Assembly (NCBI RefSeq): GCF_013387495.1
Contig: NZ_JABZEE010000024.1
Span: 62,001 to 126,000, forward strand
Direction of reading: 5' to 3'
Length of the DNA stretch: 64,000 nt
Source of the DNA: Streptomyces sp. PKU-EA00015
GTDB taxonomy: Bacteria > Actinomycetota > Actinomycetes > Streptomycetales > Streptomycetaceae
The position numbers and the translations under genes are program-made. Below the pieces are notes generated by a model. It did no database searches and had not been told where the DNA came from. It saw only the letters and a program-made list of their open reading frames with translations. How positions within the stretch are numbered: position 1 is the stretch's first letter; each line of letters opens with the position of its first letter. Positions 33,564-63,929 of the stretch are shown here, piece after piece.

Positions 33564-33617
33564 GGTGAATGGCTCCCTTCACCGGCAGGAACGTGCCGGA
33601 CGATCCGTTGTAGAGGG

Positions 33618-33633
33618 AGTGGTCCAGTCCACC
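33618..33633 (-). promoter_or_regulatory. dre-like DasR binding site upstream of msiK
   Basis: AGTGGTCCAGTCCACC matches the dre consensus A(C/G)TGGTCTAGACCA(C/G)T at 13 of 16 positions. DasR is the GntR repressor responsive to glucosamine-6-phosphate. Binding is inferred. Confidence 0.5.
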
Positions 33634-35515: not shown

Positions 35516-35591
35516 GCCGCCTTAGCTCAATCGGTAGAGCGGGGTCCTTGTAAGACTCAGGTCGTCGGTTCGATTCCGACAGGCGGCTCCA
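35516..35591 (+). tRNA. tRNA-Thr (anticodon UGU)
   Basis: A complete cloverleaf: acceptor GCCGCCT/AGGCGGC, D-arm GCTC...GAGC, anticodon arm GGGTC-CTTGTAA-GACTC with TGT, T-arm GTCGG-TTCGATT-CCGAC, discriminator T and an encoded CCA (35589-35591). It decodes ACA/ACG threonine codons. A strong terminator follows. Its 3' end is a common integration site, but no integrase is present here. Confidence 0.97.
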
Positions 35592-60342: not shown

Positions 60343-61284
60343 TTATGCCGCGCGACGCGCCGCGTACTCACCGATCTCGCGCATAGGCGGCCGCTCCTCG
60401 GTGTCCACCGGGTGGTCCCGCGCTACGAATCCGTGCTCGCCGCGCACGAACTGGGTGAGCTCGGGCCGCACCAAATGGCCGCGGGCCAGCCTCAGTTGCG
60501 CCGTGCGGTAGATCGTCGCCGCCATCCGGCCAAGAGCCTGCCCGTCCTGGTGGCGGTGCCTGCGCGTGCCCACGTCGACCTGTGCGAGCGCGTCGAGTCC
60601 CACCAGGTTGAGGGCGTCCACCAGCAGGCCCAGCTCCACTCCGTAACCGACCGGGAACGGCAGTTGCTCCAGCAGGGAGCGCCGGGCCGCGTACTCGCCG
60701 CCCAGCGGCTGGACGAAACCGGCCAGTTGCGGCCAGTGCAGATTCAGCAGCGGCCGCGCCACCAGCTCGGTCACCCGGCCTCCCTGAGCAGGGGCGGCAC
60801 CGAGCGGGCGGTCGTACATCGCCTTGACGAACTGCACTTCGGGGTCGGTCAGCAGCGGCCCCACGATCCCGACGACGAAGTCCGGGGAGAACTCGCGCAG
60901 GTCCGCGTCCACGAAGCACACGATGTCACCGGTGGTCACCATCAGTGACCGCCAGAGCACATCGCCCTTGCCCGGCACCGCCGGTATGCGCGGCAGGACG
61001 GCGTCCCGGTGGACCACCCGCGCGCCCGCCGCGGCGGCCACCTCGGCCGTGCGGTCGCTCGACGCCGAGTCGATCACCACCAGTTCGTCGACCAGCGGAA
61101 CGGGGCCCGACATCAGCGCGCCGCGTATCGTGGTGACGATCTCCCCGACCGTCTCCTCCTCGTTCAGGGCCGGCAGCACCACGCTGACCGTGGTGTTCTT
61201 CTTGGCGGCCAGCAGCCGGCCGAGAGGGCGGTCGGCCACCGACCAGGACCGTCGGGTGAGCCAGCGCTCCACCTCATCCAGCAC
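60343..61284 (-). CDS. gpgS: Glucosyl-3-phosphoglycerate synthase
   Basis: The 313-residue GT-A (GT81) enzyme contains SVVLPALNEEETVGEIVTTI (~30-49), the metal-binding VDADLREFSPDFVVG and the acceptor segment (WPQLAGFVQPLGGEYAARRSLLEQLPFPVGYGVELGLLVDA). It transfers glucose from a nucleotide sugar to 3-phosphoglycerate, the first step to glucosylglycerate. GTG 61284 is chosen because GGAG is 5 bases upstream (VLDEVERWL); a longer ATG frame starts at 61320. Next to otsA, so these make compatible solutes. Confidence 0.88.
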   Translation of the reverse strand: MLDEVERWLTRRSWSVADRPLGRLLAAKKNTTVSVVLPALNEEETVGEIVTTIRGALMSGPVPLVDELVVIDSASSDRTAEVAAAAGARVVHRDAVLPRIPAVPGKGDVLWRSLMVTTGDIVCFVDADLREFSPDFVVGIVGPLLTDPEVQFVKAMYDRPLGAAPAQGGRVTELVARPLLNLHWPQLAGFVQPLGGEYAARRSLLEQLPFPVGYGVELGLLVDALNLVGLDALAQVDVGTRRHRHQDGQALGRMAATIYRTAQLRLARGHLVRPELTQFVRGEHGFVARDHPVDTEERPPMREIGEYAARRAA

Positions 61285-61402
61285 GTGATCTCCATCTCGC
61301 GGATCGGACGACCATCTCAAGCGTCCAGGGGTTCGGTTACAGTCTTGAACAACGCGCAGGGCCGCCGCATGTCGGGGTCACCGCGCCGACAATCGAATAC
61401 CG

Positions 61403-61543
61403 CTCATCCAGAGGGGCAGAGGGACACGGCCCGTTGAAGCCCCGGCAACCCTCCAGCCGATCTCTGCGCTCATCGCGCGAGGCTCACGGCTAGGGAAGGT
61501 GCCAATTCCGTCTCGCGGCGAGATGCGCCGCGGGGAAGATGAG
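61403..61543 (+). promoter_or_regulatory. SAM-I (S-box) riboswitch controlling metM-metO
   Basis: The leader has the S-box elements in order: CTCATC-CAGAG, a GGCAGAGGGA step, GAAGCCCCGGCAACC, AAGGTGCCAATTCC and a closing GATGAG (61538-61543) that pairs with CTCATC (61403-61408) to form helix P1. The closing strand runs into GGAG/AAAGG just before the ATG at 61563, so SAM binding likely hides the ribosome-binding site. High SAM should shut off the operon. Confidence 0.93.
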
Positions 61544-61562
61544 GAGAAAGGGCCTCGCCTCC

Positions 61563-62867
61563 ATGGCTGTGCAGACTGTCGCCACCACGAACGAATCCGC
61601 TGGTTCCACCGGATCCGTCGACCTGGGCCCCGCCTCCGGGCTCTCCTGCCGCGAGTGCGGCGAGCGGTTCGACCTCGGTCCGATCTTCGCGTGCGAGGTC
61701 TGTTTCGGGCCGCTCGAAGTCGCGTACGACGTGCCGAGCGGCGACCCCGAGGCCCTGCGAGCGCGGATCGAGTCCGGCCCCGAGAACATCTGGCGCTACG
61801 CCCCGCTGCTGCCCGTCCCGGCCGACGTCGCGGACAAGCCGAACCTGAACCCCGGCTGGACCAAGCTCGTCCAGGCCGACAACCTCGCCCGTGAGCTGGG
61901 CGTCGAGGCCGGCAAGCTCTTCGTCAAGGACGACTCCGGCAACCCGACGCACTCCTTCAAGGACCGCGTCGTCGCCCAGGCCCTGGAAGCCGCCCGCGCC
62001 TTCGGCTACACCACCCTCTCCTGCTCCTCCACCGGCAACCTCGCGGGCGCGGTCGGCGCCGCGGCGGCCCGCGCCGGCCTCCGCTCCTGCGTGTTCATCC
62101 CGCACGACCTGGAGCAGGGCAAGGTCGTCATGGCCGCGGTCTACGGCGGTGAACTGGTCGGCATCGAGGGCAACTACGACGACGTCAACCGCTTCTGCTC
62201 CGAGCTCATCGGGGACCCGGCCGGCGAGGGCTGGGGCTTCGTGAACGTCAACCTCCGCCCGTACTACGCCGAGGGCTCCAAGACGCTCGCGTACGAGATC
62301 TGCGAGCAGCTCGGCTGGCGGCTGCCCGACCAGATCGTCATCCCGATCGCCTCCGGCTCCCAGCTCACCAAGATCGACAAGGGGCTGCAGGAGCTGATCA
62401 AGCTGGGTCTCGTCGAGGACAAGCCCTACAAGATCTTCGGCGCCCAGGCCGAGGGCTGCTCCCCGGTGTCCGTCGCCTTCAAGGCGGGCCACGACGTGGT
62501 CAAGCCGCAGAAGCCCGACACCATCGCCAAGTCCCTGGCGATCGGCAACCCGGCCGACGGCCCGTACGTCCTGGACATCTGCCGCCGCACCGGCGGCGCG
62601 GTCGAGGACGTCACCGACGAGCAGATCGTGGACGCGATCAAGCTGCTGGCCCGCACGGAGGGCATCTTCACGGAGACCGCCGGCGGCACGACCCTCGGCG
62701 TGGCGAAGAAGCTGATCGAGGCCGGTGAAATCGACCCGTCCCTGACCACGGTCGTCGTCAACACGGGTGACGGCCTCAAGACCCTCGACGCGGTGGCGCC
62801 CACGACGGGTATGACCGCTGTCATCCGACCCAACCTGGACTCTTTCCGAGAGGCTGGCCTCGCATGA
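61563..62867 (+). CDS. metM: PLP-dependent threonine-synthase-like enzyme, probable MetM (homocysteine-forming)
   Basis: The 434-residue protein resembles threonine synthase: PLP lysine K133 in NPTHSFKDRVV, GNLAGAVGAAAARAG phosphate loop, IASGSQLTKIDKGL and a C-terminal NTGDGLKTL. Unlike the ThrC of hom operons it has an N-terminal zinc-ribbon-like C29-x2-C32-x11-C44-x2-C47. It lies under a SAM riboswitch and overlaps a sulfur-carrier gene by four bases. MetM of Streptomyces, a threonine-synthase homologue, makes homocysteine from O-phosphohomoserine using thiocarboxylated MetO. This gene pair fits that description. Annotation as thrC is the older alternative and cannot be excluded from sequence alone. 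Confidence 0.82.
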   Translation: MAVQTVATTNESAGSTGSVDLGPASGLSCRECGERFDLGPIFACEVCFGPLEVAYDVPSGDPEALRARIESGPENIWRYAPLLPVPADVADKPNLNPGWTKLVQADNLARELGVEAGKLFVKDDSGNPTHSFKDRVVAQALEAARAFGYTTLSCSSTGNLAGAVGAAAARAGLRSCVFIPHDLEQGKVVMAAVYGGELVGIEGNYDDVNRFCSELIGDPAGEGWGFVNVNLRPYYAEGSKTLAYEICEQLGWRLPDQIVIPIASGSQLTKIDKGLQELIKLGLVEDKPYKIFGAQAEGCSPVSVAFKAGHDVVKPQKPDTIAKSLAIGNPADGPYVLDICRRTGGAVEDVTDEQIVDAIKLLARTEGIFTETAGGTTLGVAKKLIEAGEIDPSLTTVVVNTGDGLKTLDAVAPTTGMTAVIRPNLDSFREAGLA

Positions 62868-63139
62868 GCGTCAACGTCCGTATCCCCACCATCCTCCGCA
62901 CGTACACGGGCGGGCAGGCCGAGGTCCCCGCGGAGGGTGCGACCCTGGCCGAGGTCATCGCGGACCTGGAGAAGAACCACACGGGCATCGCGGCCCGCGT
63001 CCTGGACGACCAGGGCAAGCTGCGCCGCTTCGTCAACGTGTACGTGAACGACGACGACGTCCGCTTCGAGCAGGGCCTGGAGACGGCGACGCCGGACGGT
63101 GCGGGCGTCTCGATCATCCCCGCCGTCGCCGGCGGCTGA
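62864..63139 (+). CDS. metO: Sulfur-carrier protein MetO (MoaD/ThiS/CysO family)
   Basis: The 91-residue protein is a beta-grasp ubiquitin-like carrier (VRIPTILRTYTGG, FVNVYVNDDDVRF) ending in the diagnostic Gly-Gly (AVAGG), which is adenylated and thiocarboxylated by a MoeZ-type enzyme. Its ATG overlaps the metM stop (ATGA). It is expected to give sulfur to MetM. A terminator follows. Confidence 0.88.
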   Translation: MSVNVRIPTILRTYTGGQAEVPAEGATLAEVIADLEKNHTGIAARVLDDQGKLRRFVNVYVNDDDVRFEQGLETATPDGAGVSIIPAVAGG

Positions 63140-63168
63140 TCTCCTCCGCGTCACCCCGCGTTATCGGT

Positions 63169-63203
63169 ATTGCCCCCTCCGCGAGAGAAGCGGAGGGGGC
63201 AAT
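63169..63203 (+). terminator. metM-metO terminator
   Basis: Perfect 14-base stem ATTGCCCCCTCCGC / GCGGAGGGGGCAAT with a 7-base loop, 30 bases after metO. Confidence 0.85.
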
Positions 63204-63546: not shown

Positions 63547-63750
63547 ATGGCTCAGGGCACCGTCAAGTGGTTCAACGCGGAGAAGGGGTACGGCTTCATC
63601 GCGGTCGACGGTGGTGCGGATGTTTTCGTCCACTACAGTGCGATCCAGATGGACGGATACCGCACCCTTGAAGAGGGTCAGCGAGTCGAGTTCGAGATCT
63701 CGCAGGGCCAGAAGGGTCCGCAGGCTGACATGGTCAAGCTCGCCGTCTGA
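63547..63750 (+). CDS. Cold-shock domain protein (CspA-type)
   Basis: The 67-residue single cold-shock domain has the RNP-1 KGYGFIA (13-19) and RNP-2 VFVHYS motifs. It begins [13 protein letters not shown]. It chaperones RNA. Streptomyces have several; this one is scoF3-like by position, directly before the groEL2 promoter. ATG 63547 has an AGGGGAG site about 6 bases upstream. Confidence 0.95.
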
Positions 63751-63867: not shown

Positions 63868-63894
63868 CTTGCACTCTCAGGGGTCGAGTGCTAA
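63868..63894 (+). promoter_or_regulatory. CIRCE element 1 (HrcA operator)
   Basis: CTTGCACTC-N9-GAGTGCTAA; the right half is a perfect match to CIRCE, the left has two differences from TTAGCACTC. HrcA represses chaperonin genes here. Confidence 0.85.
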
Positions 63895-63902
63895 TCATTG
63901 CG

Positions 63903-63929
63903 TTAGCACTCTCCCAGTGAGAGTGACAG
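63903..63929 (+). promoter_or_regulatory. CIRCE element 2 (HrcA operator), degenerate right arm
   Basis: TTAGCACTC-N9-GAGTGACAG; the left half is perfect, the right half matches GAGTG only. With element 1 it forms a double operator, as expected before groEL2, whose gene lies past the right edge of the window. Confidence 0.75.

Follow-up and report, generated by a model that had tools for sequence, protein, structure and literature searches.

A SAM-I riboswitch ahead of a predicted MetM/MetO homocysteine route in Streptomyces, and its distribution across the Actinomycetota

Streptomyces sp. PKU-EA00015 carries, within a 64,000-nt stretch of contig NZ_JABZEE010000024.1 (positions 62,001 to 126,000; hereafter the window, whose own numbering is used), two overlapping genes, metM and metO, behind a riboswitch of the SAM-I (S-box) class, which senses S-adenosylmethionine (SAM). 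Judged from sequence, the pair is almost certainly the published MetM/MetO methionine route, turned off by SAM via the riboswitch, and very likely this SAM-repressed operon makes homocysteine, hence methionine and SAM, by the MetO/MetM mechanism proposed below. MetM and MetO of Streptomyces were reported in 2024 (Hasebe, Adachi, Maruyama and Hamano; Appl Environ Microbiol 90:e01247-24). The accessible part of PMC12172450, which cites that work, describes MetM as a Streptomyces homocysteine synthase with homologues in cyanobacteria, and says that S. albulus is kept from methionine auxotrophy by MetM and carries a SAM riboswitch upstream of metM. In S. lividans TK24 an RF00162 riboswitch with RNA-seq support lies before SLIV_16930-SLIV_16925 and is filed under threonine biosynthesis (PMC8079986, Table 3, from the part of that paper available). 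Pair and riboswitch are therefore already published, and the riboswitch-metM link is not the little-explored feature that the first-pass annotation of this DNA had taken it for. As one more example of a published system, the locus has little novelty of its own; the parts worth following are the phylum-wide linkage, the alternation with metX and the use of two expression platforms. In the open-access literature searched we found no paper on phylum-wide SAM-I-metM linkage or its platforms; in their accessible parts, a 2013 regulon survey (PMC3766115) treats Corynebacteriaceae and Mycobacteriaceae among Actinobacteria, and PMC13257386 does not mention MetM.

Enzyme, carrier and genome context

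The leader matches the Rfam covariance model RF00162 at 61401-61545 on the + strand, scoring 76.4 bits at E 3.6e-16, above the gathering score of 44.4, which bears out the S-box leader proposed earlier. No other RF00162 match at E <= 0.001 turned up when 150 of 433 first-look candidates from the 7.7-Mb genome were scored. Downstream lies metM (61563-62867, +), coding for a threonine-synthase-family enzyme dependent on pyridoxal 5'-phosphate (PLP) and predicted to be a homocysteine synthase that uses O-phosphohomoserine. Translation of the open reading frame (ORF) from the likely start, the ATG at 61563, to the stop at 62867 gives 434 aa; an alternative in-frame ATG at 61539, within the P1 helix of the riboswitch, would give 442 aa. 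The ATGA at 62864-62867 carries both the metM stop and the start of metO (62864-63139, +), which encodes a ThiS/MoaD-fold sulfur carrier of 91 aa ending in PAVAGG, in agreement with the GG-ending carrier and four-base overlap of the first-pass annotation.

MetM contains a PALP domain (232.9 bits) and matches the threonine synthase model TIGR00260 above its cut-off (273.3 vs 167.1 bits), whereas its match to a further threonine synthase model, NF006050, stays under the cut-off (256.7 vs 303 bits). The TIGR00260 match would also suit a second threonine synthase that merely sits beside a carrier gene, with the riboswitch balancing threonine against methionine, and the threonine label of the S. 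lividans target (PMC8079986) and a cyanobacterial relative with mainly threonine synthase activity (PMC12172450), both from the accessible text of those papers, point the same way. The distribution of the two enzymes argues otherwise. We surveyed 396 Actinomycetota genomes, an even draw of species with families coded, and called an enzyme MetM-type if it matched the window enzyme at E <= 1e-80. Such an enzyme was found in 138 genomes; 137 metM loci were fetched and the window was used as the 138th. A second threonine synthase was rejected as the main explanation because a canonical ThrC match (E <= 1e-60) is also present in 130 of the 138 MetM genomes; these matches are assumed to be distinct from the MetM gene, since in the present genome the two families match each other only at 1.5e-45. 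The linkage of MetO and SAM-I to metM across many families, and loop residues unlike those of both ThrC paralogues of this genome, also stand against it, and we regard it as highly improbable.

Those loop residues, R232, Y235 and S239, occur together with C299 and S324 in all 138 MetM-type proteins, and all five differ in both paralogues. The window MetM has RPYY-x-EGSK where the three best-matching solved threonine synthases have NP[YH]R-x-EGQK, a loop whose Arg presumably binds the substrate phosphate. In MetM a Tyr replaces this Arg and a new Arg appears three positions before it, which suggests that the pocket for phosphate or carrier has been remodelled.

At its N-terminus MetM has the CxxC-N11-CxxC pattern noted earlier, as a four-cysteine ribbon (C29-x2-C32-x11-C44-x2-C47; 61647-61703, +) that is predicted to bind zinc. 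The sequence features described in the first-pass annotation are all confirmed. Each cysteine is kept in 133-134 of the 138 proteins, the others being gaps save for a single Ser at each of C32 and C47. The ribbon had been put forward as a little-explored feature of MetM, and we rejected it as a MetM hallmark: it is not MetM-specific because a threonine-synthase-like protein of the same genome (L003) has the same four cysteines, and the NF006050 match begins at MetM residue 25 and model position 7, so the model spans the ribbon. Its role could perhaps be carrier docking. None of the 20 PDB sequences matching at E <= 1e-5 covers the ribbon, all matches starting at residue 73 or later, and nothing was drawn from an AlphaFold2 model built from 27 Streptomyces sequences (mean predicted local distance difference test score 35.3), probably too few diverse sequences. 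The gene for L003 (G000:C81) lies between subtilase-like and thiolase-like ORFs, neighbours named from their translations.

MetO matches PF02597 (ThiS) with 63.8 bits, and its nearest solved relatives are chains of 3dwg and 4n6e, the closest being 3dwg chain C, which we take to be CysO. The genome has four ThiS-family carriers, one of which (L018) lies between a JAB-domain gene and a cysteine synthase gene (TIGR01136, 367.1 bits) and forms a mec-cysO-cysM set. MetO is 59% identical to this CysO; its tail, AVAGG, has a free GG, compared with AVAGGMV in CysO.

The rest of the genome (7.70 Mb in 159 contigs, completeness 99.99%) fits a methionine role for the pair. The second threonine synthase expected in a hom-thrB operon was found as L002 on contig C72, a canonical ThrC (TIGR00260, 323.5 bits) with homoserine dehydrogenase (NF004976, 558.5 bits) on one side and homoserine kinase (TIGR00191, 216.6 bits) on the other; all three exceed their cut-offs. 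The identity of L002 to the window protein, from residue 78 onwards, is 37%. A further ThrC-type protein (L004; TIGR00260, 293.7 bits) is encoded by a third such gene (locus L103, G000:C148), whose neighbours are an RpiR-like regulator ORF and a transposase-like one, again named from translations. For MetX the best match reaches 28.6 bits and covers the model in part, with none at E 1e-40, and MetA (PF04204) has no match at E 1e-15. The separate hom-thrC-thrB cluster, the lack of metX and metA matches and the RF00162 match together support the MetM/MetO pathway proposed by the first-pass annotation. It had also expected metB and metY to be absent; this held for metY, as for metA and metX, since no PF01053 protein of the genome reaches the MetY or MetZ cut-off, but not for metB, as the genome encodes a cystathionine gamma-synthase (NF005871, 675.8 bits vs a cut-off of 513).

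This metB-type enzyme is one of three strong PF01053 proteins and raises the alternative of plant-like transsulfuration, in which cystathionine gamma-synthase would work from O-phosphohomoserine as the main homocysteine source and MetM/MetO would be minor or bifunctional. The absence of acyl-homoserine enzymes among the matches in the genome agrees with this as well, and on sequence grounds the acyl-homoserine for a classical MetB is without a visible source. The other two PF01053 proteins, a cystathionine gamma-lyase (L009; NF005758, 569.1 bits vs 440) and a methionine gamma-lyase-like protein under every listed cut-off (L008), instead fit reverse transsulfuration, and none of the three genes has a SAM-I element of its own, because metM has the genome's sole match. 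We hold plant-like transsulfuration to be quite unlikely as the main source and favour MetM/MetO.

By the mechanism that we propose for MetM/MetO, the C-terminal glycine of MetO would be activated to a thiocarboxylate, presumably by an activating enzyme (E1) of the MoeZ/MoeB type. MetM would bind O-phosphohomoserine diverted from the threonine pathway, eliminate phosphate on PLP and add the MetO sulfur to give homocysteine, a step predicted here and published for S. albulus. Homocysteine still attached to MetO would be freed by a Mec protease. Plentiful SAM would stabilise P1 of the leader, and in Streptomyces, as sequence and folding suggest, the ribosome-binding site (RBS) would become less accessible, leaving metM and the overlapping metO poorly translated.

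Two putative expression platforms

The covariance model matches the leaders of all 11 Streptomyces loci of the phylum sample. For a closer comparison we used 81 Streptomyces leaders, namely the window and 80 loci kept out of 517 relatives, which include S. noursei (L033) and encode proteins 86-95% identical to the window protein. In the window the P1 helix pairs 61403-61408 with 61538-61543 (+), and its strands, CTCATC and GATGAG, are kept in 81 of 81 leaders together with the GGTGC core motif. The putative translational expression platform (61538-61562, +) consists of the P1 3' strand, AGAAAGGG (61545-61552, +; the putative RBS), a CCTC element and the ATG. AGAAAGG, two bases past P1, is presumably complementary to the 3' end of Streptomyces 16S rRNA. 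Every one of the 81 leaders has a purine run ending in GGG after GATGAG, in the form GAGAAAGGG(A) in 75 and shorter in 6, and two have one extra A. The spacing from GATGAG to ATG is 17-21 nt throughout.

Folding of the 81 leaders was compared with P1 enforced and with its 5' strand blocked. The mean unpaired probability of the RBS stretch increased from 0.61 with P1 to 0.85 without it, rising in 77 of 81 leaders. When P1 is blocked, a GAGG/CCTC hairpin that shares P1 bases and holds the RBS stretch in its loop forms with a mean probability of 0.57. That the shift in RBS accessibility is moderate only, and that accessibility of the start codon is nearly unchanged (0.53 to 0.55, higher in 45 of 81), tells against control at the RBS. 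On balance, a translational switch acting through the RBS beside P1 is a moderately supported reading of the Streptomyces metM leader.

Control of transcription is the alternative, and outside Streptomyces it has a basis: terminator-like hairpins with U-runs were found in 27 of 88 leaders when the search ran from 20 nt ahead of the aptamer end to 70 nt beyond it. Among the controls, the opposite strand gave such hairpins in 0 of 88, coding sequence in 2 of 88 and mononucleotide shuffles in 15 of 1,760. Confining the scan to sequence before the chosen start codon left 23 terminators, chiefly in families f27, f34, f42 and f45. Such platforms fit SAM-I as an off-switch. The same confined scan gave no terminator-like hairpin in any of the 11 Streptomyces leaders, in which the 17-21 nt between the P1 3' strand and the ATG leave little room for one, and riboswitches of Actinomycetota tend to be translational according to the accessible part of PMC12452182. 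Rho-dependent or coupled effects would still be compatible with transcriptional control, which we consider unlikely for Streptomyces. As read from sequence, the SAM-I leaders of metM thus use two platforms, terminator-like hairpins and an RBS beside P1.

Distribution across the Actinomycetota

Of the 137 fetched loci, 99 have a SAM-I element 5' of metM in the same orientation, which makes 100 of 138 once the window is counted, and the linkage spans 25 of 35 families. These counts were made with model R1, whose alignment consists of 42 of the 137 fetched loci and the window, which match by construction. All 100 genomes with a SAM-I-linked metM are also Rfam-positive at the genome level, and counting linkage from the Rfam places among the matches listed alone gives at least 57 loci. 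Six of the 38 loci without SAM-I have less than 250 nt of upstream sequence. In the whole sample at least one SAM-I element was found in 199 of 396 genomes (192 above the Rfam cut-off), in 109 of 138 with MetM and 90 of 258 without, a comparison of related species for which a p-value is no clean test.

A MetO-like gene directly follows metM in 107 of 138 loci, with an exact GG end in 74 of the 107, and SAM-I and an adjacent MetO occur together in 86 of 138. For 30 of the 31 MetM genomes without an adjacent MetO a carrier is found elsewhere in the genome; four of these 31 loci have less than 350 nt downstream. Carrier ORFs of the survey were read from stop to stop, so that tails are exact and N-termini are not. 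Some MetO-like carriers (L268, L285, L263 and L242, as well as L208, L239 and L246) run for about 5-20 residues beyond PAVAGG and would need trimming before activation. GroEL genes lie 3' of 31 of the 138 metM loci, probably as inherited gene order.

SAM-I also precedes metX, at a distance of 148-244 nt, in at least 30 places in at least 29 genomes (112 MetX places compared with 150 SAM-I places, among the matches listed), and none of the 29 listed SAM-I-metX genomes (e.g. G119, G087 and G290) has MetM. SAM-I is thus the mark of one or the other of two enzymes committing carbon to homocysteine. MetX was judged by E-value (1e-40; 150 genomes matched) because no genome among the 396, nor any of 14 controls, came up to the curated cut-off of 500 bits. 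MetX is present in 36 of 138 MetM genomes and 114 of 258 others (Fisher p 5e-4; species not independent). A clear inverse relation between the two enzymes was rejected on these counts, as it is only partial.

The Mec and MetA searches covered 80 of the 138 MetM genomes, chosen for completeness and spread, and metM neighbours that might complete the carrier cycle were sought from 900 nt upstream to as far as 3,500 nt downstream. A Prok-JAB (Mec-family) match was found in 80 of 80 genomes, 79 above the cut-off. In one genome (G244; L323, C8:45500-54500) a single-strand row runs sat, a TauE-type exporter, mec, a ThiS-CysK fusion, metM, metO, an E1-like ThiF, a NIL-domain gene and a PP-loop gene. 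The row is one isolated case and has no SAM-I among the matches listed, but its gene content sets MetM within sulfur assimilation. Its ThiS-CysK fusion is odd because the carrier's glycine end is not free. A conserved neighbour that completes the carrier cycle was rejected as a general feature, since an E1-like gene stands beside metM-metO only in G244 (with mec just upstream). Elsewhere there are single matches: a cysteine-synthase ORF immediately 5' of metM in G351, a NIL-like match in G172, PP-loop matches in G236 and G140, and a match to the MoeZ query 3 kb off in G051. The matches close 3' of metM in family f47, G236 (L186), G140 (L182) and G172 (L241) are PP-loop (LarE-like by appearance) or NIL-like.

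Several observations count against a methionine role for every MetM-type enzyme and for the pair as sole route. Eight MetM genomes have no ThrC match, two of which (G097 and G274) are 97-99% complete, and distant relatives, 49-61% identical to the window protein, could act as threonine synthases. The 14 genomes of family f15 carry a MetM-type enzyme but lack both SAM-I and an adjacent MetO. MetX occurs alongside MetM in the 36 genomes counted above, including 4 of 12 Streptomyces, so MetM is not always the sole route; the cystathionine gamma-synthase of the present genome belongs here as well. The presence of Mec is ambiguous because the separate CysO route would need it too. Finally, a cyanobacterial relative 51.6% identical to S. 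albulus MetM is mainly a threonine synthase and not fully a MetM, according to the accessible part of PMC12172450, which warns against calling every distant relative MetM.

In the f15 genomes at L324-L326 and L328 the solitary MetM-type enzyme goes together with a carrier and a JAB gene close to each other elsewhere. A JAB gene, an E1-like gene and a carrier follow in succession, away from metM, in G106 (L324), and G022 and G049 have a similar gap between JAB gene and carrier, with a gene in between.

Weighing these results, we lean slightly towards SAM-I-metM-metO as an old, phylum-wide methionine module of the Actinomycetota, not one peculiar to Streptomyces, that alternates with SAM-I-metX as the regulated entry to homocysteine. 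With its target unchanged, the switch would have moved between RBS occlusion in Streptomyces and termination in several families that lie outside the class of the window. The row in G244 suggests a full carrier cycle of activation by an E1, synthesis by MetM or a CysK fusion and release by Mec, with one protease and one activating enzyme for cysteine and methionine. Genes annotated as threonine synthase would thereby get a probable place as homocysteine synthases, and MetM/MetO would explain how methionine is made where metA and metX are both missing. In Streptomyces, the supply of methionine and SAM has a bearing on secondary metabolism. The phylum-wide distribution allows tests of MetM/MetX redundancy, of the need for Mec in methionine synthesis and of how a riboswitch class shifts its control mechanism on the same target.

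Surroundings of the locus and known systems

The unit is flanked on the left by a divergent glycosyltransferase gene (60343-61320, -; Glycos_transf_2 domain match) and on the right by an ORF at 63547-63750, which we take to be of the cold-shock type. A 14-bp perfect inverted repeat with a 7-nt loop at 63169-63203 (+) is the probable transcript end of metM-metO; it terminates exactly at 63203, the last coordinate of the piece in the first-pass annotation, and is not among the results of a consensus terminator scan because it has no T-run. A promoter scan found no sigma-70 consensus site. Further off in the window are an msiK RNA at 33567-33625 (-; RF01747, 61.2 bits) and a tRNA-Thr with anticodon tgt at 35516-35591 (+). 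A 23-bp inverted repeat, 83% complementary, at 63872-63925 (GAGTGCTAA / TTAGCACTC) lies 5' of a groEL-like ORF beginning just past the window and has what we take to be the appearance of CIRCE.

Compared by description, S. albulus MetM/MetO shares with the window a threonine-synthase-like enzyme, a sulfur-carrier gene and an upstream SAM riboswitch, and no differing feature was found in the accessible account. The S. lividans TK24 unit SLIV_16930-SLIV_16925, likened by description and not by sequence, also has RF00162 5' of a two-gene unit under amino-acid synthesis; unlike our reading of the window, the available part of its report labels it threonine biosynthesis. The CysO-CysM-Mec system of M. 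tuberculosis resembles MetM/MetO in that a GG-ending ubiquitin-fold carrier feeds a PLP enzyme with a phosphorylated amino acid (PMC3227635, accessible part). It differs from the window pair, whose carrier is not paired with a CysM-type synthase and mec; the mec-cysO-cysM cluster of this genome is separate, at L018. HcyS-MetY of Wolinella shares with MetM/MetO a carrier thiocarboxylate as sulfur donor for homocysteine but differs in using O-acetylhomoserine and a MetY-type (fold type I) enzyme.

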